From a virus: 64,000 bases of DNA. The stretch is taken from the IMG/VR virus record IMGVR_UViG_3300034682_000176, positions 62,001 through 126,000 of that record; one strand, written 5' to 3'. A program made the translations under genes and the position numbers. Of the stretch, positions 13,789 through 41,287 are shown one piece after another. Positions within the stretch are counted from its first letter, which is position 1. Each line of letters opens with the position of its first letter. The notes beneath the pieces were generated by a model. It was not told the origin of the DNA. It worked only from the letters and a program-made list of their open reading frames with translations, and ran no database searches.

Positions 13789-13835
13789 CCACACCACCCA
13801 GCGTTTTGCCGGGTGGTGTGGATCACGCTTTTAAG
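13789..13835. terminator. Bidirectional terminator beside the fibre array
   Basis: An 11-bp stem (13789-13799 with 13811-13821) sits between convergent genes ending at 13778 and 13831. It ends the whole leftward fibre array and the + gene. Confidence 0.75.
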
Positions 13836-14595
13836 CGTACTTGATGTAGCTGTTCATGCCGGCAGCATCGGTCAGGGTGGTGTCGGGCAGTTGGAACTGA
13901 CCTTCAGGGACCGTACCGACGTTGTAGCGCGTGCCGACCACTGCAAACAGGGCGGCGTAGGTGGTCTGGGAGACAAGACCGCCGTTGGTGCGCAGGTGGT
14001 TGGTGGGATTGGTGGTCGAAGCGCTGGTGACGATGTCGCCGATCTTGCCAGCACCTTGGTTTTCACGAGCGGTGACCGCGGCATCCACATAGGCCTTGTT
14101 GACCAAGTGGGTGGGCAGCGATGGTGCGCTGGTGATGTACAGAGGGCCGGTCATCGTGCCGCCGGTGGTGCGCAGGGCGTCCGTGATCCCGTAGCCTTCC
14201 AGCGTAGTGGGTTTGTCCAGGGTGATCGAAGACCAAGGCACATTGGTCAGCACGCTGTAGTCCACCAGTTCGCCGTAGGTCACAAAGCCCTTGGCGTTGA
14301 CGGTGATCTTGTTGTAGGTACCAGGAATCACGCCGGTGGGCTTGAGTTCAAAGATACCGTAGCCGGACGAGAAGATGTCTTGGCCGGTAAAGGCAGGCAG
14401 ACGCTCGGCAGGGATGGTGCCGGTGATGTTTTCCACAGCGACGTGGCCAAGCATCATGTCCACGTACTCCTTGGTCACGGCGTGCAAGGGGTCGGTAGGG
14501 TTGGACGGCAGGTATAGTGGCGCCGAAATCGGACCACCGTTAGGGGTCAGGCCATTGAGACCATAACCGCCACCGTTATACATTTTCGTGCGCAT
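13831..14595 (-). CDS. Short tail-fibre protein with an uninterrupted collar domain
   Basis: 254 residues; ATG 14595 was chosen for the AAAGGAG site. The N-terminal part has the AVTKEYVD motif and a G-T-Y-N-K-I-T-V-N-A-K-G turn shared with the five larger fibres. The last 56 residues are a tail-collar domain: HLRTNGGLVSQTTYAALFAV followed within 15 residues by FQLPD and an ending SYIKYA. Here the collar is continuous, while in its paralogues a beta-propeller sits between the two halves. Probably a fibre or adhesin attached to the baseplate. It may be the ancestral form, or one that lost the propeller. Confidence 0.75.
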   Translation of the reverse strand: MRTKMYNGGGYGLNGLTPNGGPISAPLYLPSNPTDPLHAVTKEYVDMMLGHVAVENITGTIPAERLPAFTGQDIFSSGYGIFELKPTGVIPGTYNKITVNAKGFVTYGELVDYSVLTNVPWSSITLDKPTTLEGYGITDALRTTGGTMTGPLYITSAPSLPTHLVNKAYVDAAVTARENQGAGKIGDIVTSASTTNPTNHLRTNGGLVSQTTYAALFAVVGTRYNVGTVPEGQFQLPDTTLTDAAGMNSYIKYA

Positions 14596-14663
14596 GTGTT
14601 CTCCTTTCAGAACAGGTAAAGTCTGGTTGACGTTGCGAAGAGAGACAGGTAAAGGAATCTTCG

Positions 14664-14673
14664 TCAAATAGTT
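14664..14673 (-). promoter_or_regulatory. AACTATTTGA element before the short fibre gene
   Basis: Exact AACTATTTGA on the minus strand, 69 bases before the start at 14595 and 6 bases past the terminator of the gene upstream. One of six exact copies, each before a fibre gene. Confidence 0.6.
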
Positions 14674-14678
14674 AGGAT

Positions 14679-14715
14679 ATAGACCACTGCCTCCCCACGG
14701 AGTGCAGTGGTCTAT
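14679..14715 (-). terminator. Terminator after the fibre gene at 14722
   Basis: 12-bp perfect stem (14704-14715 with 14679-14690). No T run; the AACTATTTGA element follows instead. Confidence 0.6.
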
Positions 14716-14721
14716 CCCGCG

Positions 14722-16647
14722 TTACGGCAGTGCTTTGATGTAGTACTCGTAGATGCCATCGTTCTTGGCTGTCCAGTCCGGCAGCTTGAACAAGGTTGGA
14801 TCAATGCCCGATTCTACAATCAAGGCAATGTAGTCGTTGGTACCTCCTCCGAACCCGGAGTAGTAGATAGTGCTTGTGATTGAGAAATACTTGATGGGAT
14901 TATTGACATCCCCATAACCCACCAACCCACCAATACAGTACACACGAGAGCTGGTCACAAACACAACTTGAGCACCGACACGGACCGGTAAAGATTGGGC
15001 GGATGTCCAGCTTCCCATTGTGCCGTCAGCATTGATGGTTGCACTGTGTACTTTTTGAGTGCCGGATGCATAAGAGACACTTCCGCCATTACCGGCACCT
15101 ATCCACGTTGATTGAAAACCAGTACCACCAATAGCATAAGCACGCTTTTGGGTCGAGACAATTCCAGCACTTTGATAACCGCTCAAACCAGTGACCGAGA
15201 ACCCCGGGTTATATGTAGACCAACCACCCAACGTCCCATCAGCATTAATGGCTGCGGAATAGCGAACATTGCCAAGAACGATGTGAACGTACGTTTTGGT
15301 TACCGAAATAATTGACAACACGGTGCTGACTGCCACCGGTACAGAACCGGCACTAACCCAGCTACCAATGGTGCCATCGGAGTTGATCGGAGCACGATAG
15401 ATAGAGCTTCGATAAGCGCTTCCATTGTACCCACCGATCATATAGACGTAGTTTTTGACTACAACCATAAACTGGCAGGAATTAGCAAATGGCAAATTGG
15501 TCGTTTTAGACCAAGCGCCAATGGTGCCATCTTCATTGATCTTGGCCATGTAGACCGAATTGAGGACAGTTTCTCCACCACTATCAGGCAAAAACGTCAT
15601 GGTGGACTGGCCGCCAAAAATGTATACGTAGCCCTTGGTCACCACCACCGATGCACTTGCTACACTAATTGGGAATGCGGAAGCCGCCGCCCAAGACCCC
15701 AACGTACCATTGGAGTTAATGGTCGTTGTATAGACTTTATTGATGGTTGCGGTATTTGAGGAGGTATCTGGACCTTGATAACCGCCGACCACATACACCC
15801 GGTTCTTGGTGACAAACGGGGTTGCGTGCGCAATAGTGATCGGGAAAGAACCAGCAGTCCCCATACCAAGACTGGTGGAGTTGTCCGTATCATTAAACGC
15901 ACCTTGTTGTGCCCAGGGTTGGCCAGCATAACCTGCCTCCCCGCCACTTCCGCCACTGGTGCTGTAAGTCAGACCAATGAGTGCAAACAGATCGGGATAC
16001 ACCGCACGCTCCACCCAAGCGCCGTTGGTGCGCAGATATTTGTCATGCGCCACGGTGTTAGGTTTGATGGCCAGGTCACCGACGTTTTGCGAACCAAACG
16101 TGCGGCTGGCAAACGAAGTCAAATAACCAAAGGTGGTGGCTTCCACTTCCGTGGTTGGAGCACGACTCAGCGTCAAGTTGTCGCTGAGTGCGGTGTTCTG
16201 GAAACCGACAGTGTTACGGATGTATGGGGTGGTGTTGGTAGTGTAACCATCCACACCGGTAGGGCGATTCTTGATCTCGCTGAAAGACAGCGATGGCAAG
16301 GCATTGTCTTGGGAGATGGGAAGGCCTGCGATGATCTGACCTTTGGCATTGACGGTGACACGGCTGTAGCTGCCGGATGCACCGACAGGACGCAAAACCA
16401 CCTGCGTCTTGTTATACAGACATACGTCACCATCGATGCCATCGGCAATCTTGTCTATCGGCACCACCCCACCTGTGATGTTTTCTACCGAAAGGTTGTA
16501 GGGGAAGTTATCGACGTAGTTCTTGGTGGCAGCTTCATTGGCAGTCATCGGCAAACGTGCCAGTGTCAAGTACCCCACCATGGTAAACCCTTCCAGCACC
16601 ACGCTTCGATCAAAAATGCCGGAGTTGGTAAACAACTTGATTTTCAT
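14722..16647 (-). CDS. Tail fibre / receptor-binding protein 1 with six-repeat propeller
   Basis: 641 residues from MKIKLF, the start shared by the paralogues; ATG 16653 two codons upstream is possible but sits against the AGAAAG site. The N-terminal 200 residues are the conserved fibre base (EAATK.YVD; Y-S-R-V-T-V-N-A-K-G). A collar-domain first half (YLRTNGAWVERAVYPDLFAL) is followed by six repeats of about 50 residues with V-T-K-x-x-V-Y-x-x-G-G and I-N-x-D-G-T-x-G-x-W, a Kelch-like beta-propeller. The collar second half (FKLPDW...YEYYIKALP) closes the protein. It shares a 76-base identical block with the next paralogue. Role: host recognition, inferred. Confidence 0.8.
   Translation of the reverse strand: MKIKLFTNSGIFDRSVVLEGFTMVGYLTLARLPMTANEAATKNYVDNFPYNLSVENITGGVVPIDKIADGIDGDVCLYNKTQVVLRPVGASGSYSRVTVNAKGQIIAGLPISQDNALPSLSFSEIKNRPTGVDGYTTNTTPYIRNTVGFQNTALSDNLTLSRAPTTEVEATTFGYLTSFASRTFGSQNVGDLAIKPNTVAHDKYLRTNGAWVERAVYPDLFALIGLTYSTSGGSGGEAGYAGQPWAQQGAFNDTDNSTSLGMGTAGSFPITIAHATPFVTKNRVYVVGGYQGPDTSSNTATINKVYTTTINSNGTLGSWAAASAFPISVASASVVVTKGYVYIFGGQSTMTFLPDSGGETVLNSVYMAKINEDGTIGAWSKTTNLPFANSCQFMVVVKNYVYMIGGYNGSAYRSSIYRAPINSDGTIGSWVSAGSVPVAVSTVLSIISVTKTYVHIVLGNVRYSAAINADGTLGGWSTYNPGFSVTGLSGYQSAGIVSTQKRAYAIGGTGFQSTWIGAGNGGSVSYASGTQKVHSATINADGTMGSWTSAQSLPVRVGAQVVFVTSSRVYCIGGLVGYGDVNNPIKYFSITSTIYYSGFGGGTNDYIALIVESGIDPTLFKLPDWTAKNDGIYEYYIKALP
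16061..16136 (-). repeat. 76-base identical block, copy 1
   Basis: Identical at every position to 18001-18076 in the neighbouring fibre gene, although sequences just outside it differ. It codes for the segment before the collar domain, which points to recent gene conversion. Confidence 0.85.
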
Positions 16648-16706
16648 ATCCATTCTTTCTACAAAGTACAAACGTCAGCTTGTCGATATTATCGAGTTGA
16701 ACTGCT

Positions 16707-16716
16707 TCAAATAGTT
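16707..16716 (-). promoter_or_regulatory. AACTATTTGA element before fibre 1
   Basis: Exact copy 60 bases before the start at 16647 and 11 bases past the preceding terminator. Confidence 0.6.
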
Positions 16717-16726
16717 AACGTACACA

Positions 16727-16760
16727 CACCCACACACTGCCAAACAGCAGTGTGTGGGTG
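16727..16760 (-). terminator. Terminator after fibre 2
   Basis: 14-bp perfect stem (16747-16760 with 16727-16740, loop 6), 7 bases past the stop at 16767. Confidence 0.65.
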
Positions 16761-16766
16761 CAGTGA

Positions 16767-18587
16767 TTACGCTGTAGCTTTAATGTAGTACTCGTAAATC
16801 CCATCTTTTTTGGAGGACAGATCAGGGAGTTTGAACTTGGTTGTGTCGTAAGACCACTCGGTCATGACAGTAAGGTAATCGTTAGTGCCGCCATTAAACG
16901 GTGTAGAGTAAACCGCCTTAACGATGGTGCTGTTGTTGTTGCCATTAATAATAATCAACCGGTTTTTAACGACCGCCGCTAAAAAAGCCCATGCCGGATA
17001 AGGTAAAGTGCTGCTACTTAGTGTCCATGACCCTAATACACCGTTGCTATCAATCGGGGCGTAGTAGATTGTATTTAGAGAGTAAGTTCCATCAAAACCG
17101 CCTAAGATGTACGCCATACTCTTAGTGACAATATATCTGGGACTAAAATTGATGTTGGGAAAATTAGGCATAGTAACCCATGTTCCAATACTGCCGTCTG
17201 CATTGACCGGTGCACGAAACACGGTGTTGGTGTAAAATGAACCGGTTTTAATTCCACCAATCAAGTAAATGTAAGAAGAGGTCAAAATGGGGCTACCGGC
17301 TGCCAACCCGTACGGTAAGGTAGTGCCAGCAGTCCAGCTACCAATGGTCCCATCTACGTTAATGGCTGCGCTATAAGTGCGATCTGACTTAGTTCCGTTT
17401 GACGTTGTAAACCCTAGGATGTGAACACGGTTATTGGTTGCTACAACCGTTGCATCAAAAATAGGCTCTGGAAACGTGCCGTAATTGCTCCAGCTGCCAA
17501 TGGTGCCGTCTGCGTTGATAGGGGCACTTAAAATGGTATTAATGTAATTGGTACCATTATTACCTCCCATTAGGAACAATCGGTTCTTAGTCATAAAGAC
17601 TGCCGGGGAATAAACTGCGCCAGGTAGCGAGCCAGCTACTGTCCATGCAGATGGTGTCCCATCCGCCGCAAGCGTGGCAGTGTAGATGGTCTGCGTGGCT
17701 ACAACTGCGTTAGTAAGTACACCACCCAGGGTATACATGCGGTTTTTGGTAACAATTAACTTAGAACCCCAAAGCTCTACAGGTAGAGAGTTTGGCAGCT
17801 GTGTCCAGGTAAACGTTGTAGGGTTTGTTTGTTCGTTGAGTGTTCCTTGCTGGACCCACGGCTCACCAGTAGCAGCTACAGGTATAGAGATAGGCACTAG
17901 TCCATACTGATCACCAATGGCACTGTAGAGTGTTTGGTAAGACGCCCTATCCAGTGTGGCACCGTTAGCTCGCAAATACTTGTTGTGAACAATGGTGTTG
18001 GGTTTGATGGCCAGGTCACCGACGTTTTGCGAACCAAACGTGCGGCTGGCAAACGAAGTCAAATAACCAAAGGTGGCAACTTCGGCACCAGCTGTTGGAG
18101 CACGAAACAAGGTCAGCGCCGAGCTGAACGCTGTGTTGTTGACATTGGCTGGTGTGCGGATATAGTTGGTGGGTGCTGCGGCATAACCGTCCACAGTGGT
18201 TGGTCGGCTCTTGATCTCTGAGAACAACAGAGAAGGGTCGGCGTTGTCCAGGTACACTGGGATGCCCGACACAATCTGGCCTTTGGAGTTGACTGTCACC
18301 CGACTGTAGCTGCCGGCCGCACCCACAGACTTCAAAGCCGTCTGGGAGGCATTGTAGGTGACAACGTCACCGGAGATTCCAGCCCCAATACGTTCGTAAC
18401 GAACTGGACCGCCAATAATTGCGTCTACCGACAGACCATAGGGAAGGTTGTCGACATAGCGCTTGGTGGCTGCTTCATTAGCAGTCATGGGGTTGCGCGC
18501 CAAAGTCAGATGCCCCACCATGGTGAAGCCTTCCAGGACCACGCTGCGGTCAAAGATACCAGAATTCGTGAACAGCTTGATTTTCAT
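16767..18587 (-). CDS. Tail fibre / receptor-binding protein 2 with six-repeat propeller
   Basis: 606 residues; AAGAGG precedes the ATG. It has the same architecture as fibre 1, and the first 45 residues differ from fibre 1 at only a few positions. The repeats carry the signatures LAADGTPSAW, INADGTIGSW, INVDGTIGSW, VNADGSIGTW and IDSNGVLGSW, plus a first divergent blade. The propeller surface loops differ strongly from the other copies while the base and collar are kept, as expected for alternative receptor specificities. The end is FKLPDLSSKKDGIYEYYIKATA. AT content of the propeller is higher than in the base, a sign of faster change or separate origin. Confidence 0.8.
   Translation of the reverse strand: MKIKLFTNSGIFDRSVVLEGFTMVGHLTLARNPMTANEAATKRYVDNLPYGLSVDAIIGGPVRYERIGAGISGDVVTYNASQTALKSVGAAGSYSRVTVNSKGQIVSGIPVYLDNADPSLLFSEIKSRPTTVDGYAAAPTNYIRTPANVNNTAFSSALTLFRAPTAGAEVATFGYLTSFASRTFGSQNVGDLAIKPNTIVHNKYLRANGATLDRASYQTLYSAIGDQYGLVPISIPVAATGEPWVQQGTLNEQTNPTTFTWTQLPNSLPVELWGSKLIVTKNRMYTLGGVLTNAVVATQTIYTATLAADGTPSAWTVAGSLPGAVYSPAVFMTKNRLFLMGGNNGTNYINTILSAPINADGTIGSWSNYGTFPEPIFDATVVATNNRVHILGFTTSNGTKSDRTYSAAINVDGTIGSWTAGTTLPYGLAAGSPILTSSYIYLIGGIKTGSFYTNTVFRAPVNADGSIGTWVTMPNFPNINFSPRYIVTKSMAYILGGFDGTYSLNTIYYAPIDSNGVLGSWTLSSSTLPYPAWAFLAAVVKNRLIIINGNNNSTIVKAVYSTPFNGGTNDYLTVMTEWSYDTTKFKLPDLSSKKDGIYEYYIKATA
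18001..18076 (-). repeat. 76-base identical block, copy 2
   Basis: Partner of 16061-16136. It lies in the same relative position of the paralogous gene. Confidence 0.85.
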
Positions 18588-18632
18588 AACAGACCTCTTG
18601 GAGCAAAATAGGGTATGGCGTTGTCGCGCTTA

Positions 18633-18642
18633 TCAAATAGTT
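18633..18642 (-). promoter_or_regulatory. AACTATTTGA element before fibre 2
   Basis: Exact copy 46 bases before the start at 18587, extended to AACTATTTGATAAG. Confidence 0.6.
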
Positions 18643-18651
18643 CTTGATCAT

Positions 18652-18687
18652 GACACCACCTCAGCGCCAAAACGCTACGGTGGTGTC
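18652..18687 (-). terminator. Terminator after fibre 3
   Basis: 9-bp outer stem (18679-18687 with 18652-18660) plus an inner AGCG/CGCT stem. It begins 7 bases past the stop at 18694. Confidence 0.6.
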
Positions 18688-18693
18688 GTTCAT

Positions 18694-20493
18694 TTACGGC
18701 AAAGCACGGATGAAGTATTCCAGCGGACCATAGGTCTTGTCGCTGTGGTCAGGCAGTTTGAACTGCGAAGTTGGGTTGATTGTGTTGGACAAGATCACAG
18801 CAATGTAATCATTCACACCCCCAAGGAAAGGTGTTTGATAAACAGTTGACACTGTAGTGTTGGCGTCCGAATACCCACCAAGAAGATAGATATACCCATT
18901 AGTCACGACAGCTTGACCGCCGTGTTGAGGACTTGGGAGATTAGTCCCCAACGACCAACTACCCAGTGTGCCATCGGTGTTGATTGGCGCAGTGTAAACG
19001 GTGTTTTTGCTGGTGTTGGCGCTATACCCACCCAAAATGTATACACGACTCTTGGTAACGATAGGTTGTGTGTGACTGACTGGAATTGGGAAAGAACCTG
19101 CCGAACTCCAACTACCCAGTGTGCCATCACTATTCACAAGTGCAGTGTAAATCACACTCAGAGATCCGTTGGCGTCTTGTCCTCCAATCAGGTACACCCG
19201 GTTCTTGGTCGTGACCACAGAGGCATTGCGAATGAAGTAAGGGAAATCGGGCTCAATCACCCAAGACCCCAAACTACCGTCCAAGCTAATCGGTGCGCTG
19301 TAAACCGCTTTAGTGTGTCCAGCATTGTTAGAACCTGCCAGCAGGTACGCCCGCTTTGTGGTCACAACAAGCTGTGCGTGAGCAAGCTCTTTTGGAAGTG
19401 AGGGACCGGTCACCCAACTCCCTAACGTTCCGTCGGCGTTGATGGGCGCATAACGAACTGCAGAAATGGTGGTAGTACCGTCGTACCCACCCAGCAAGTA
19501 CAACCGATTTTTGGTGACAAATGCCTGGGTCGCATACAAAGGTGTCGGCAGACTTGTTTCCAACTGCCAGCCAACCAAAGTGCCGTCTGGATTGAGCATG
19601 CTGCTGTAAACACCGGCACCAGTGCCAGAGCCTGAGTAATACCCCAACAGGTACACACGACTCTTGGTAACTACTGCTTGTGAGGAACCTACGGTAATAG
19701 GTAAATTGGTGCTGGGACTCCAGGTCAAACTTGCGGAGTTGGTCTGGTCGTTGAATGCGTACTGCTGGCGCCAAGGCTGACCCATGAACCCAAGAGGGTC
19801 GATGCTGTAAGTATCTCCAATGATCGCGTACAGTGCAGCGTAGGTGGTTTTGCTGATCACCCCGCCATTAGCACGCAAGTACTCAGCACCAGCAACACCA
19901 ATCGTAGAGATCTTCAGACTGCCGACTGGAGGGCGACCTACCATACCAGCAGTCTTGCCAGCGACATAAGCTTGCGTTGCCACGTGGTTAGGCAGTGTGG
20001 GTGTGACTTCACTCAGCAGGTTGCCGTCGATCTCGACATTGCTGTTAAAACCATTGGTCTTAATGGCATACCCCGAGGCGTCACCAATGTACCCTACAGT
20101 TGTTGTAGGACGGGCAGTGATGTTGGTAAATGGAAGGACCAACGGACCGCCGCCAGGTACTTGTTGGGCAGCTATCACACGGCCTTTCTCATTGACCGAA
20201 ACACGGTTGTAGACACCAGGCTGCACACCAGTGGACGACAGGTACACGTCTGTGCCGTTGAAGCCGACCAGATCACCACCGATACCGCCGATCAAATTGG
20301 CTTTGCGGATGGGTTTGCCGGAAATCATGCTGGCATCAAACACCGTTGGAAAACTGTCCACGTAACGCTTGGTCGCTGCTTCGCTGACGCTTTCGGGGTT
20401 GCGGTACAAGGTCAAGAAATCAAGGAGTGTGAAGCCATCCAGAAAGACGTTGTTCTGGAGAATGCCGTTGCTGGAAAAAAGTTTGATTTTCAC
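18694..20493 (-). CDS. Tail fibre / receptor-binding protein 3, GTG start
   Basis: 599 residues. The conserved VKIKLF start corresponds to GTG at 20493; no ATG is available at the paralogous position and the longer in-frame extension is absent from relatives. The base has EAATKRYVD and Y-N-R-V-S-V-N-E-K-G. Collar halves are EYLRANGGVISKTTYAALYA and FKLPDHSDK...LEYFIRALP. The propeller has six repeats, five carrying N-x-D-G-T/S-L. The initiator difference may lower its translation relative to the others. Role in host recognition is inferred from architecture. Confidence 0.8.
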   Translation of the reverse strand: MKIKLFSSNGILQNNVFLDGFTLLDFLTLYRNPESVSEAATKRYVDSFPTVFDASMISGKPIRKANLIGGIGGDLVGFNGTDVYLSSTGVQPGVYNRVSVNEKGRVIAAQQVPGGGPLVLPFTNITARPTTTVGYIGDASGYAIKTNGFNSNVEIDGNLLSEVTPTLPNHVATQAYVAGKTAGMVGRPPVGSLKISTIGVAGAEYLRANGGVISKTTYAALYAIIGDTYSIDPLGFMGQPWRQQYAFNDQTNSASLTWSPSTNLPITVGSSQAVVTKSRVYLLGYYSGSGTGAGVYSSMLNPDGTLVGWQLETSLPTPLYATQAFVTKNRLYLLGGYDGTTTISAVRYAPINADGTLGSWVTGPSLPKELAHAQLVVTTKRAYLLAGSNNAGHTKAVYSAPISLDGSLGSWVIEPDFPYFIRNASVVTTKNRVYLIGGQDANGSLSVIYTALVNSDGTLGSWSSAGSFPIPVSHTQPIVTKSRVYILGGYSANTSKNTVYTAPINTDGTLGSWSLGTNLPSPQHGGQAVVTNGYIYLLGGYSDANTTVSTVYQTPFLGGVNDYIAVILSNTINPTSQFKLPDHSDKTYGPLEYFIRALP

Positions 20494-20562
20494 GTCTGTC
20501 TCGCTTTCGGTTAAAGAGCAATCGATGAGGAGGTAACCAGACGGCTTAACAGTCTGGATCAA

Positions 20563-20572
20563 TCAAATAGTT
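20563..20572 (-). promoter_or_regulatory. AACTATTTGA element before fibre 3
   Basis: Exact copy 70 bases before the GTG at 20493 and 7 bases past the preceding hairpin. Confidence 0.6.
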
Positions 20573-20578
20573 AAAGAA

Positions 20579-20611
20579 ACCAGAGCTAGGGCATTGTGCC
20601 CTAGCTCTGGT
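20579..20611 (-). terminator. Terminator after fibre 4
   Basis: 15-bp perfect stem (20597-20611 with 20579-20593) and a 3-base loop. Confidence 0.65.
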
Positions 20612-20624
20612 CTATTGGACTGGT

Positions 20625-22424
20625 TTATTCCACCGCACGGATGAAGTATTCCATAACGCCATTTTTCAGGCTGGAGTAGTCAGGCAGTTTGAACTGCGTT
20701 TCATCTGGGACAAAACTGCTGATCAACGCCATGTAATCGTTGGTACCACCATTGAACGGGGTGCTGTATGTCGAGTTGATGTAAACCGAACCAGACCACC
20801 CTCCCAACAGGTAGAACTTGTTATTGACACACGCCCCTTGAGTTGCGGCCAACGCTACAGGCAAGGTACCCATCGAGCTCCAAATCCCCAGGCTGTCGTC
20901 CAAATTGATGGGGATGGTGTAGATTGACGTAATGGTTGCGGAATAACTCGCGCCACCCATAAAGTAAATGCGATTGCGAGTAGCAAAGGCATATGTGCAG
21001 TACGCAGCAATCGGTAGCTCCGGCCCGGTTGACCACGCACCCAGACTTCCATCAGCATTAATGGGAGCTGTGTACACCGTACTGATCGGGGCTGAACCAC
21101 TAAATCCGCCCAATAGATAAACACGGGTTTTGGTAACGATGGCTTGGGAGTTTGAAACACCGACCGGCAGACTTGTCGAACTGGTCCAGGCACCCAAGGT
21201 ACCATCCACGTTGATCGGGGCTTTGTAAACATTACCCACAAAAGTCGAACCGTTATACCCGCCAAGAAGGTAAACAAAGTTCTTGATAACAACAGGGCTG
21301 GACGACGCCAGACCTTGTGGAATGTTACCAGCACCAGACCAGACACCAATGGTACCATCGGCATTGATCGGAGCAGTGTAGATCTTGGATGTCACGCTGT
21401 ACAAACCTGTACCGGCACCCATGATATAGACACGGTTTTTGGTGATGATCACGTTGGCTTGGGTCAACACTTCTGGCAGTGGTGTAGCACTAGCCCAACT
21501 CCCTAGCGTGCCGTCTGCGTTGATCGGAGCAGTGTAGACGGCGGAAGTCCAAGTTGAGGTGGTAGTGCGACCACCCATCAGGTAGATGCGATTGGTTGTC
21601 ACGACGACAGAGCTGTCAGTCAAGTTGATAGGCAGTGACGTGCCTTGGGTAAAAGTGAAGCTGGTGGAGACATTGCCATTGAACGCATACTGCTGGCGCC
21701 AAGGTTGTCCCATGTAGCCTTCCGAGTTTTGATTGTTGTACGTGTCGCCAAGGACTGCGTATAATGCTGGGTAAGTGGTTTTGCTGAGCACACCGCCGTT
21801 GGCACGCAGGTACTCTGGACCACGGATTGCAGCAGTGGAGATCTTCAAGTCACCCACACGGATCTTTGGAACCATCGCACCAGCCTTCTGGTTCAGGTAA
21901 GAGCGCGTGGCAGCATGTCCACTGGTGGTGGGTGTCACACTTGTGTAAAGGTTGTCTGTAAGTGTCAAATTGCTGTTGATCCCGTTGGTTCGCACTGCAT
22001 AGCCGGACACATCATCCACATACCCCGATGCATTGACTGGGCGGTCGATAATGTTACCAAAATGCAACACCGAAGAACCACCGTAGGTCTCAGTGGTAGC
22101 GGCGATAATACGACCCTTGGCGTTGACGGTGACGCGGTTGTAAGAGCCGGGTTGAATACCGACACCCGACAGGTATGCGTCAGTCCCATTGAAACCGGCC
22201 AGATCTCCACCAAACCCACCCAACAGCAGAGCCTTCGGAATCACAGAACCGTTGATTTGGTTGACGTTGAACGTACTGGGGAAACTGTCAGCGTATCGCT
22301 TGGTAGCAGCTTCTTGGGGACCGTCTGGGTTGCGGTACAACGTCAAGAAATCCATCAAAGTGAACCCGTCCATGATCACGTTGTTTTGGAAGTTGCCGCT
22401 GTTAGAGAAAAGTTTGATTTTCAT
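20625..22424 (-). CDS. Tail fibre / receptor-binding protein 4 with six-repeat propeller
   Basis: 599 residues. Base: residues 1-200. Collar first half: 205-230 (EYLRANGGVLSKTTYPALYA). Propeller: about 250-565, with five I-N-x-D-x-x-L/I-G-x-W signatures and one divergent first blade; one repeat has NLDDSLGIW in place of N-x-D-G. Collar second half: about 575-599 (FKLPDYSSLKNGVMEYFIRAVE). The base is closest to fibre 3 (GFTLxDFLTLYRNP). No clear Shine-Dalgarno site is seen before the ATG, unlike the neighbours, so expression may be lower. Host-range role inferred. Confidence 0.8.
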   Translation of the reverse strand: MKIKLFSNSGNFQNNVIMDGFTLMDFLTLYRNPDGPQEAATKRYADSFPSTFNVNQINGSVIPKALLLGGFGGDLAGFNGTDAYLSGVGIQPGSYNRVTVNAKGRIIAATTETYGGSSVLHFGNIIDRPVNASGYVDDVSGYAVRTNGINSNLTLTDNLYTSVTPTTSGHAATRSYLNQKAGAMVPKIRVGDLKISTAAIRGPEYLRANGGVLSKTTYPALYAVLGDTYNNQNSEGYMGQPWRQQYAFNGNVSTSFTFTQGTSLPINLTDSSVVVTTNRIYLMGGRTTTSTWTSAVYTAPINADGTLGSWASATPLPEVLTQANVIITKNRVYIMGAGTGLYSVTSKIYTAPINADGTIGVWSGAGNIPQGLASSSPVVIKNFVYLLGGYNGSTFVGNVYKAPINVDGTLGAWTSSTSLPVGVSNSQAIVTKTRVYLLGGFSGSAPISTVYTAPINADGSLGAWSTGPELPIAAYCTYAFATRNRIYFMGGASYSATITSIYTIPINLDDSLGIWSSMGTLPVALAATQGACVNNKFYLLGGWSGSVYINSTYSTPFNGGTNDYMALISSFVPDETQFKLPDYSSLKNGVMEYFIRAVE

Positions 22425-22490
22425 AGTGACATCGCTTTCTAGTCAAAAGAGGGAACAAATAACCTTGTCGGGTAAATCGTTCAAGGTTTA

Positions 22491-22500
22491 TCAAATAGTT
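22491..22500 (-). promoter_or_regulatory. AACTATTTGA element before fibre 4
   Basis: Exact copy 67 bases before the start at 22424, directly after the long palindrome at 22507-22542. Confidence 0.6.
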
Positions 22501-22506
22501 AGTGAC

Positions 22507-22542
22507 GTAGAGTCAGAGTAGCCTAGGCTACTCTGACTCTAC
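22507..22542 (-). terminator. 36-base near-perfect palindrome after fibre 5
   Basis: 17-bp arms (22507-22523 and 22526-22542) separated by only two bases. It lies 7 bases past the stop at 22549 and could form a very stable hairpin or a cruciform. Confidence 0.65.
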
Positions 22543-22548
22543 TGGCGA

Positions 22549-24372
22549 TTAATTAGCCGCGCAAATGAAGTATTCCAAAATACCGTTGGTCAAATTGGAG
22601 TAGTCCGGCAGCTTGAAGCTGGTGGTGGGGTTGAAAATGTTTCCGGCAACAGTCACAACGTAGTCGTTGGTGCCACCGGAGAACGTATAACTCGTGGTGG
22701 TGGTCAGCGCAGTACCGCTGGGGTTGTATCCACCAATCATGATCATGCGGCTGTTGGTGACAACAGCCTGGCCGTACGCCATACCGCTGGGCAAGGCTGT
22801 AGATGTTGTCCACGTACCCAAGGTGCCGTCGGCATTGATGGGGGCGGTATACACAGTCGTCAGGGCACCGGTGTTGGTTGCAGCTCCGCCAATCAGGTAC
22901 ACCCGATTGTTGGTCATGACCGCTTGGGCAAACGCCACGGCCGAGGGCAGCGAAGTGCCAGTAGTCCAAGCACCCAAGGTGCCGTCAGCGTTAATCGGAG
23001 CGGTGTACACCGCAGAAGTGTGGGTGGCGGAAGTCACCGCACCGCCAAGCACATACACCCGGTTCTTGGTGATGACAGCTTGGGAGCCGTTCAAGACACC
23101 TGGCATATCTGCTGCAGAAGTCCAGGCACCAATGATACCGTCGTCATCGATCGTGGCAGTGTAGACCTTCTTGGAGTAACCGACGGCATCCAAACCACCC
23201 ATCAGGTAGATGCGGTTGGTGGTCACGACCACACTTGCGCCGCAGACACCGGCAGGCAGCGAAGTGCCATCTGTAAAAGCACCGATGGTGCCATCGGCGT
23301 TGATGGTTGCCCAGTATGTGGTAGGTGTGAATTGGGAAGGGGAGAGTGCACCACCGATGAGGTACAACTTGTTCTTGGTCATGACAACCGTGTGTCCGCA
23401 ACGCGCGCTGGGGATGGTGCCAGCGCCAGCCCAGGTACCAACGGAGCCATCGGCGTTCAAAGGTGCGGTATAGATATTGGGGGTGTAGGTGCTGTTAGCA
23501 ACAACGCCACCGAACATGTAGATGCGGTTTTTGGTCACTGCGGCCTGGCTCCACCACAGAGCTGCCAACAAGTTGCCACCAGCTGTCCATGCACCGGAAG
23601 TGCTGTTGTTAACGGTGTTAAACGCGTACTGCTGACGCCATGGTTGCGCCACATAGCCAGTTGTACCGCCCGCCCCACCGCCACTGCTGAACGTGTCTCC
23701 GATGACAGCGTACAGCGCGGCATAAGCCGTTTTGTCCAGGACTGCCCCGTTGGCACGCATGAAACGTGTGCCGGCGATGCTGGGTGTCGAAATCTTGAGA
23801 TCACCGATCTTGGCACCAGCACTCATGTTTGCCATTTTGGTTTGCAGGTATTGCTGGGTCGCGGCATGGGTGTCCACCGTGGGCTGGGTGTTCACCATCA
23901 GGGTGCCAGTCAGACTGATGTCCGAATTGGTACCGTTGGTCTTTATGGCGTACGGCGAAACATCGGCGATGTAACCGCCAGCGGTTGTGGGTTTGTTGGT
24001 GATCGAGTTGAAACTCAGTTGCTGGGTGCCACCTGTGTCGGTGTGTGCGGCAGTAACACGACCCTTGGCATCCACCGTGACTTTGTTGTAACTACCTGCG
24101 GTGATACCCATCGACTTCAGAAACAGATCGGTGCCATTGAAGCCGATCAAATCACCGCCAACACCACCTACCAGACGTTGTTTAGGAATGGTGTCTCCGA
24201 CGATTTTGCTGACGTCGTAAGTTGTCGGGAGTTTGTCCACGTAGCGCTTGTTCGCAGCTTCGTTGGAGAATTCTGGGTCACGGTACAGGTTGAGGAAATC
24301 CAGCAGCGTGAAGCCATCCACTTCGACGACGTTATCTTGAGCACCGCCTTGGGGGAAGATTTTGATTTTCAT
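22549..24372 (-). CDS. Tail fibre / receptor-binding protein 5, first of the array
   Basis: 607 residues; AAAAAGGTG precedes the ATG. Its N-terminus is the most divergent of the five (MKIKIFPQGGAQDNVVEVDG) but keeps FTLLDFLNLYRDP and NKRYVD. Collar halves are RFMRANGAVLDKTAYAALYA and FKLPDYSNLTNGILEYFICAAN. The propeller has six repeats with regular I-N-A-D-G-T signatures, and its DNA is more GC-rich than in fibres 1-3, so it may be the longest resident. It is the promoter-proximal gene of the array and faces the + gene at 24538. Confidence 0.8.
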   Translation of the reverse strand: MKIKIFPQGGAQDNVVEVDGFTLLDFLNLYRDPEFSNEAANKRYVDKLPTTYDVSKIVGDTIPKQRLVGGVGGDLIGFNGTDLFLKSMGITAGSYNKVTVDAKGRVTAAHTDTGGTQQLSFNSITNKPTTAGGYIADVSPYAIKTNGTNSDISLTGTLMVNTQPTVDTHAATQQYLQTKMANMSAGAKIGDLKISTPSIAGTRFMRANGAVLDKTAYAALYAVIGDTFSSGGGAGGTTGYVAQPWRQQYAFNTVNNSTSGAWTAGGNLLAALWWSQAAVTKNRIYMFGGVVANSTYTPNIYTAPLNADGSVGTWAGAGTIPSARCGHTVVMTKNKLYLIGGALSPSQFTPTTYWATINADGTIGAFTDGTSLPAGVCGASVVVTTNRIYLMGGLDAVGYSKKVYTATIDDDGIIGAWTSAADMPGVLNGSQAVITKNRVYVLGGAVTSATHTSAVYTAPINADGTLGAWTTGTSLPSAVAFAQAVMTNNRVYLIGGAATNTGALTTVYTAPINADGTLGTWTTSTALPSGMAYGQAVVTNSRMIMIGGYNPSGTALTTTTSYTFSGGTNDYVVTVAGNIFNPTTSFKLPDYSNLTNGILEYFICAAN

Positions 24373-39532: not shown

Positions 39533-41287
39533 GTGGCTGAGCAAAAGAAGATCATACGCAAAGAAATCCGCTTTGCTATCCATCTGCCTAAGAAAGACTA
39601 CCGTGAAGACGCGCACTACATCAAAGAGCACATCTACTTCGAGGACGGCACCAGTACCTGGCATACGTTCCTGACGGAAAACTACCAACGCCCGATCTGG
39701 GTGACCAAGCCATCGGCTCGTAACCACAAAGACAAGAAAGAGTTTGAGTACCGTACCAACCTGATTGAGCAAAAATGCACCCAGTCGGACGTCAACCGCA
39801 CAGTAGCGGGCCTGTTGGAAGTGCCGCACTTGGCCAACCGCCCTATTGAGCTGCGCTCATCCCCTTACGTGTATGGGTATGACCAGACTTCCACGTCGAT
39901 CATCAAGCTGCAAAGCCTGATGAAGAACAACTTTGTGCAAAGCCCTTACACCGTGGCGGCATCGGACAGTGAAACCGATATTGACACACGGGAAGTGTTG
40001 ATGGTCTCAATTGCCTTCCAAGGCAAGACCTACACTTGTATTTTGAAGCGGTTCTTGGAAAACAAGGGCATTTACGACTTTGACAAGCAAGTGCGTGCCG
40101 CCATTGACAAGTACCTGCCGCAGTACCAAGGCAAGTTGCAATCTACCTTCCGCATCTTTGATAAGGAAGCAGATTTGTTGGCAGATCTGTTCCGGGTCGC
40201 CAACGAGTGGGGTCCAGACTGGCTGGCCTACTGGAACATGAACTTCGACATTAAGCGCTTCGTGGAGCGCGCTAAGGCTTTGGGGGTTCGTGATTCCGAC
40301 ATCTTTGCTGACACCTCGGTACCACGCAAATACCGTTTCAGTCGTTACAAGGAAGGCATCAGCTCCAAGGAAAAGGGTGGCAAGTCCAAACCCATCAACC
40401 CTTCGCTGCAGTGGCACAGCTTGATCTCGACATCGAGCTTTTACGTCATCGATGCGATGTGTGTGTACCGCCAGCTGCGCATGGCCAAACAGGAAGAGCC
40501 CAGCTACTCCCTGGATTGGATCTTGCAAAAAGAGTTGGGTAGCCGCAAGCTGAAGTTTGAAGAAGCTGCAGCGTACCAAGGCGAGAAGTGGCACCGCTTC
40601 ATGCAGCAAAACTATCCCATTGAGTACATCGTCTACCACTTGTACGATTGCTTGGGGATGTTGGAGCTTGATGCCAAGCTGCGTGACCTGTCGCACTCGG
40701 TGCCTTCGTTTGCCTCCATGACCGACTTTGGGAAGTTCAACTCCAACCCGAAGAAGATTGTGGATGCTTTGTTCTTGTTTGGCCTGGAGCGTGGACAGGT
40801 GGTTGGCACCACCATGCCTATCCGAGACAAGGATGAAGAGGTGGCCGAGCAAGAGTCATTGATCACCGACGAGATGCTTGAAGACGGTGAGACCGATGAC
40901 GAAGAAGAGGAGGAAAGCGACAACCCGGATGACTACAAGGGTCTTGACCTGCGTGGTTGGATTCAGCTGTTGCCGCAGAACTTCTTGATTCGTGATGGTC
41001 TGAACTGTCTGGCCGACTTCCCGGAAGTGACCACCAGCATCCGTGGTATGGTGGCGGACTTGGATGCGACTTCTGCGTACCCCACGGCAACCTTGGTGGC
41101 CAACGTCAGCAAACGCACTTGTATCAACGAACCTATCCGTATCGACGGCTTGACCGAAGAGACATTCCGCGAACAAAACCTGAGCGTTTGTTTGGGTGGT
41201 GTGAATTCGCTGGAGTATTTCAACGTAGTCTTCCAAATGCCTGCGCTGGACTCCCCAGAGATGGAAGCCTTCCTAGAGACTTTCTAA
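39533..41287 (+). CDS. N-terminal part of a split family-B DNA polymerase (exonuclease to motif A)
   Basis: 584 residues from GTG 39533 (AAAGGA upstream). The 3'-5' exonuclease motifs are present: Exo I SDSETD (Asp145, Glu147), Exo II WNMNFDI (Asp239), Exo III YHLYD (Tyr368, Asp372). An acidic linker (about 430-470) precedes palm motif A, DLDATSAYP (Asp511 to Pro517). Only 67 residues follow. Motif B (K...NS.YG) and motif C (DTD) are absent from the protein and not seen elsewhere in the window. A terminator follows 6 bases after the stop, so this is a clean gene end. Related split gene 43 occurs in some Aeromonas T4-like phages. The polymerase half is presumably elsewhere. Confidence 0.8.
   Translation: MAEQKKIIRKEIRFAIHLPKKDYREDAHYIKEHIYFEDGTSTWHTFLTENYQRPIWVTKPSARNHKDKKEFEYRTNLIEQKCTQSDVNRTVAGLLEVPHLANRPIELRSSPYVYGYDQTSTSIIKLQSLMKNNFVQSPYTVAASDSETDIDTREVLMVSIAFQGKTYTCILKRFLENKGIYDFDKQVRAAIDKYLPQYQGKLQSTFRIFDKEADLLADLFRVANEWGPDWLAYWNMNFDIKRFVERAKALGVRDSDIFADTSVPRKYRFSRYKEGISSKEKGGKSKPINPSLQWHSLISTSSFYVIDAMCVYRQLRMAKQEEPSYSLDWILQKELGSRKLKFEEAAAYQGEKWHRFMQQNYPIEYIVYHLYDCLGMLELDAKLRDLSHSVPSFASMTDFGKFNSNPKKIVDALFLFGLERGQVVGTTMPIRDKDEEVAEQESLITDEMLEDGETDDEEEEESDNPDDYKGLDLRGWIQLLPQNFLIRDGLNCLADFPEVTTSIRGMVADLDATSAYPTATLVANVSKRTCINEPIRIDGLTEETFREQNLSVCLGGVNSLEYFNVVFQMPALDSPEMEAFLETF

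Follow-up and report, generated by a model that had tools for sequence, protein, structure and literature searches.

Kelch propellers hosted in a loop of the tail collar in putative receptor-binding fibres of a phiKZ-like jumbo phage

The short tail fibre gp12 of phage T4 (1ocy, 5lye; PF07484 and PF14928) ends in a C-terminal collar that hosts a receptor-binding head, and both the tip of the T4 long tail fibre gp37 (2xgf) and the tail fibre of cyanophage A-1(L) (8kec) also carry additional chain within a collar of the same fold. Independently, Kelch repeats are on record in structural proteins or proteins of unknown function of jumbo phages (CBB, EL, phiR1-37 and Erwinia phages), to which the passages on Kelch proteins in PMC5259590 and PMC7760394 assign no function. 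Here, we analysed a window of 64,000 nucleotides (bases 62001-126000 of the 224,810-base viral record IMGVR_UViG_3300034682_000176). At positions 13831-24372, it contains six consecutive minus-strand open reading frames (ORFs) that encode five long fibres (B to F, 599-643 aa) and a short paralogue. Each long fibre consists of an N-terminal shaft, a first collar half, a six-bladed Kelch propeller and a second collar half (FKLPD...YFIK). Such an arrangement had been proposed in an earlier note made from the sequence alone.

The split collar and the propeller between its halves

The five long fibres match Pfam Collar (PF07484) over its first part only (profile positions about 9-45 of 57) and Kelch families afterwards, whereas the short paralogue matches positions 1-52 of 57 without interruption (E 1.3e-10). 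In the protein profile search, the PF07484 cut-off of 24 bits was exceeded by the short paralogue and by four of the five long fibres, fibre B reaching 22.5 bits in this search and 25 in a six-frame search. The end of the first half (G-D-x-Y/F) is separated from F-K-L-P-D by 348, 348, 357, 356 and 391 residues in the long fibres. The same gap, up to F-x-L-P-D, is only 9 residues long in the short paralogue and 10 in a second propeller-less paralogue, L003, found in another viral contig. In an alignment of 13 fibres, the insert lies at a single point flanked on both sides by invariant collar residues. Furthermore, related collars in other viruses carry from one to four propellers: one in most hosts, two in L002, L020, L025, L027 and L030, three in L034 and four in L023. 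Each collar half stays single whatever this number.

At the sequence level, these data confirm that the collar is split with a propeller between its parts. That the propeller is hosted by the two halves appears well supported by the sequences, by the uninterrupted paralogues in two phages and by the tandem propellers enclosed between single halves. The central claim of the earlier note therefore stands, while its dimensions need adjustment. The first collar half is present but has about 40-45 residues rather than 25, and the gap of the short paralogue, although indeed short, has 9 residues and not 10-15. As for the insert, given as about 320-380 residues, the propeller module itself measures about 326-365 residues and the gap from collar to collar 348-391.

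Fibre E was modelled as a monomer with AlphaFold2 using 16 sequences. Its residues 250-556 are predicted as a closed propeller, mostly with a predicted local distance difference test (pLDDT) of 80-95. Comparison of this model with known structures (Foldseek and VIA-align, residues 252-560) retrieved LZTR1 (Z 32.0), NS1-BP (Z 31), KLHL12 and Keap1 (both Z about 30), the Kelch match at Z 32 extending over residues 254-558, and sequence matches to Kelch proteins reached E values of 1e-22 (Pfam) and 1.6e-14 (PDB). The six repeats announced in the earlier note correspond to six blades with six NRVY-x-x-GG strands. One turn, the DGTxG of blade 6, is missing because the collar joins there. The claim that the repeats close into a ring agrees with the model, which predicts a complete six-bladed Kelch propeller.

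The collar of the short paralogue (residues 181-254) was modelled with a pLDDT of 78-93 and superimposes on T4 gp12 (1ocy) over 68 residues at 2.0 Å (Z 8.7), as well as on the A-1(L) fibre (Z 8.6) and the gp37 tip (Z 7.5); a PDB sequence search with this protein gave no match. Its order of secondary structures, strand-strand-strand-helix and then strand, strand, recurs in the collar of fibre E (193-224 and 577-596). However, these parts of the monomer model have a pLDDT of only about 30-58. The packing of F-K-L-P-D against the first collar half, on which the reading in the earlier note depends, is thus matched in the order of its elements but not demonstrated by the model, and we infer it from homology. 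The low confidence at the tail of this model, together with the alignment of Pfam Collar to the first half only, could instead indicate that the collar is merely truncated and that the C-terminal FKLPD tail has no relation to it. Yet in two short paralogues the uninterrupted collar ends in a homologue of this tail, the tail is retained with one, two, three or four propellers, and its strands follow the order of the confident short-paralogue model. Truncation without insertion is therefore extremely improbable.

The collar loop in use

We call loop 1 the collar loop that precedes the FKLPD strand and loop 2 the one that follows LPD. The structural matches to gp12, gp37 and A-1(L) span far more chain than aligned residues because those collars also host a domain; for instance, the model of the short collar, about 70 residues long, is spread over residues 340-526 of gp12 in the alignment. 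However, the guest domain sits elsewhere. In gp12, Pfam Collar is unbroken (344-400), loop 1 has about 7 residues and the head (PF14928, 433-525) follows GLPDMRG, that is, in loop 2; this head is knitted and is not a Kelch propeller. Likewise, the collar of gp37 is unbroken (816-863) and its needle and head are in loop 2, as is the large insert of the A-1(L) fibre, which follows the FGVP strand. By contrast, the long fibres of the window carry their insert in loop 1, and their loop 2 is short, with 17 residues from FKLPD to the end. Hosting of the gp12/gp37 type is thus absent from them.

Other viral collars, sampled with the first collar half alone as query, have 7-13 residues in loop 1 and 83-258 after LPD. 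The propeller fibres show the reverse, with 13-22 residues after LPD. The insertion into a collar loop claimed in the earlier note is well supported, but the note had missed that this loop differs from the one used in T4. A collar hosting a tip domain is known; what differs here is the slot (loop 1) and the guest (a Kelch propeller). This comparison suggests that the tail-collar fold offers two alternative loops for a tip domain, with one used at a time in the proteins compared.

Some observations concern collars more generally. In a non-Kelch protein (L126:440-1990), collar loop 1 is extended by an insert of about 153 residues. Matches of the L002 fibre to the Sinorhizobium phages phiN3 and phiM6 were considered as insert-carrying relatives and rejected, these being ordinary collars with a short loop 1. 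Our in-house collar hidden Markov models (HMMs) did not recognise T4 gp12, which was recognised by Pfam and by structure.

Faces of the propeller and proposed function

Both borders of the fibre E module fall within a single blade, the first immediately ahead of strand d and the last immediately behind strand c, and the collar thereby replaces one c-d turn. The side of the propeller that faces the collar carries every a-b and c-d turn. Over 36 collar-hosted modules, the mean entropy is 1.05 bits for these turns (AB and CD) and 2.89 for the DA and BC loops (Mann-Whitney p about 1e-21, a rough guide only, given the common descent of the modules and the non-independence of their repeats). Because both ends of the propeller lie at this missing turn, its conserved face is turned towards the collar and the variable BC/DA face should point outward. 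The BC/DA-loop face is the one that binds ligands in Kelch proteins, for instance Keap1 and KLHL20 (PMC4668279, PMC6720452). Judged from the sequences, this polarity supports receptor binding but does not prove it, because copies of the module outside collars carry the same conserved turn motifs.

The propellers of this phage also diverge faster than shaft and collar in most pairs of paralogues. For instance, fibres B and C share 70% identity in the shaft and 64-69% in the collar but only 34% in the propeller. A pair of L002 fibres does not follow this trend (propeller 55%, shaft 49%). Swapping of propellers between paralogues was considered for B and C, whose shafts are sisters (support 99), and set aside, since the propeller data do not reject a B+C clade (p-AU 0.965). 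From these trees, replacement is not proven for the propellers of B and C, and fast divergence would suffice.

Matches to Pfam NANM and to the structure of YjhT/NanM (2uvk, Z 30) raise the question of whether the propeller could be an enzyme acting on surface sugars, similar to the sialic-acid mutarotase NanM or to galactose oxidase, rather than a binding module. Among the five long fibres, the NANM profile gave three matches below the cut-off, one above it (F) and none for B. Furthermore, no position of the DA and BC loops is conserved over the 36 modules (lowest entropy 1.81 bits); invariance is restricted to Gly, Trp, Tyr, Asp, Pro and Asn residues that belong to the repeat frame and the seam. 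The conserved active-site face of NanM is thus absent, which argues against a catalytic site common to the modules on the face that is usually active and makes an enzyme very unlikely.

A structural or generally adhesive decoration, binding glycans or particles weakly and not determining specificity, has somewhat more in its favour. The module is found in numerous settings, among them large proteins that contain concanavalin-like domains (L044) and the collarless L022 and L028, and Kelch proteins of jumbo phages are described without a known function in the passages cited above. However, the faster divergence of most propellers, the concentration of variation on the ligand face and the nine propeller paralogues in one genome argue against a decoration, which we consider rather unlikely.

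We therefore favour, as the probable interpretation, a receptor-binding display slot formed by collar loop 1 of a phiKZ-like jumbo phage and occupied by a Kelch propeller. The five genes would encode paralogous receptor-binding tail fibres, each chain consisting of an N-terminal shaft that ends in a small collar similar to that of T4 gp12. A complete six-bladed propeller would be inserted in loop 1, flanked by the helix/GDTY on one side and by the FKLPD strand on the other, and the chain would enter and leave it where blade 6 lacks its c-d turn. The conserved a-b/c-d-turn face would meet the collar, leaving the variable BC/DA ligand face outward. As the analogy with T4 fibres suggests, the collar may trimerise, giving a cluster of three outward propellers that would bind a receptor on the surface of the host; the trimer, the binding, the host and the nature of the receptor are all inferred. 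Display at the fibre tip is likewise suggested by the C-terminal position and by analogy with gp12 and gp37. Paralogues with different propellers could provide several specificities per virion. With less assurance, we lean towards a broader view in which loop 1 is a second, independent slot for tip domains that, in uncultured jumbo phages, accepts exchangeable stacks of one to four propellers, with the variable face setting specificity, in up to nine fibres per phage.

Genomic setting and relation to known Kelch propellers

Several genes near the fibres have matches among families of phiKZ-like jumbo phages: a beta subunit of RNA polymerase (phrog_3233, E 3.4e-76), DNA polymerase (phrog_3011, E 5.6e-148), baseplate proteins and internal head proteins (phrog_2497). 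Among the matches listed, the relatives of the DNA polymerase in cultured phages are jumbo phages (31-35% identity), which we take to be phiKZ-like. The presence of RNA polymerase, DNA polymerase and internal head proteins of this type supports assignment to the phiKZ-like jumbo phages. About 32 residues of the DNA polymerase gene (window 40840-40936) lie between two stretches matched by phrog_3011 and are perhaps a small insertion.

The fibre cluster (Table 1) is flanked on both sides by plus-strand genes. A second cluster of four collar-propeller fibres is located in the same record outside the window (G000:C1:8086-16952, that is, L015:3084-12439), bringing the record to nine fibres with a propeller and one without. 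The cluster of the window is also carried by a second contig (IMG/VR 3300034072_001178), in which the tested gene is 100% identical. A DNA polymerase of phiKZ type is also present in two other contigs that carry collar-hosted propellers (163 and 189 kb) and may derive from the same virus. By eye, SbcD-like and SbcC-like genes adjoin collar fibres in three divergent contigs (L015:5016-6134, L002:2991-4154 and L003:607-3024), which suggests a conserved gene order.

Table 1. Position of the fibre genes and of their parts in the window
Feature	Position	Strand	Basis
Short paralogue, 254 aa, shaft and uninterrupted collar, no propeller	13831..14595	-	Pfam Collar; model
Short paralogue, empty loop 1 (9 residues between GTRY and FQLPD)	13897..13923	-	Alignment
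Fibre B, 643 aa from ATG at 16653	14722..16653	-	Pfam
B, collar first half	15964..16098	-	Pfam Collar, alignment
B, propeller module (GQPW...NDY)	14830..15924	-	Pfam, alignment
B, collar second half (FKLPD...YYIK)	14725..14790	-	Alignment
Fibre C, 606 aa	16767..18587	-	Pfam
C, collar first half	17904..18038	-	Pfam Collar, alignment
C, propeller module	16875..17867	-	Pfam, alignment
C, collar second half	16770..16835	-	Alignment
Fibre D, GTG start at 20493	18694..20493	-	Pfam
D, collar first half	19807..19938	-	Pfam Collar, alignment
D, propeller module	18805..19782	-	Pfam, alignment
D, collar second half	18697..18762	-	Alignment
Fibre E, 599 aa (modelled)	20625..22424	-	Pfam, AlphaFold2
E, collar first half (residues 186-229)	21738..21869	-	Pfam Collar, alignment
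E, Kelch propeller module (residues 239-564)	20733..21710	-	AlphaFold2, Kelch fold Z 32
E, collar second half (residues 578-599)	20628..20693	-	Invariant F-x-L-P-D, alignment
Fibre F, 607 aa	22549..24372	-	Pfam
F, collar first half	23689..23820	-	Pfam Collar, alignment
F, propeller module	22660..23649	-	Pfam, alignment
F, collar second half	22552..22617	-	Alignment

Searches for homologous propellers yielded about fifty viral loci and eight genome loci. The module typically starts with G-x-P-W-x-x-Q (GQPWRQQY seam) and ends with G-G-x-N-D-Y. Since the same seam motifs border it in the two collarless proteins (L022 and L028), the module is defined independently of the collar. Some variants were also observed. 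L041:2-1543 (and also L102) has 434 residues in collar loop 1 with a GQPW seam and no Kelch match, perhaps a degenerate propeller. Loop 1 of L074:3884-4894 has 246 residues with about four repeats, corresponding to a smaller propeller or to the collapse of near-identical repeats during assembly. In L049:1496-4729, about 400 low-complexity residues interrupt the propeller.

Within the sensitivity of tblastn, three query proteins detected no fusion of collar and Kelch in 50,697 deposited phage records, and a literature search for Kelch combined with tail collar retrieved no paper. A Kelch match in Pseudomonas phage D6 was discarded as it is a separate gene, annotated as galactose oxidase and located among tRNA genes. 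A structural protein of Paenibacillus phage phiERICV shares the Kelch repeats, but our in-house models did not find a collar in it. Similarly, the passages on Kelch proteins in PMC5259590 and PMC7760394 do not describe a collar-hosted arrangement. Our results suggest a concrete role for these Kelch proteins of giant phages described without a function: each would form a closed ring attached by its conserved face and exposing its variable one, and a single loop could hold as many as four such rings.

The propellers of the window share the six-bladed fold of Keap1, LZTR1, KLHL12 and NanM/YjhT (Z about 30-32). Unlike these, they have one blade opened at its c-d turn, are hosted in a collar loop and have no BTB or other partner domain. 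If they do bind receptors, they would constitute a modular binding scaffold of natural origin, comparable to propellers of the Keap1 type.

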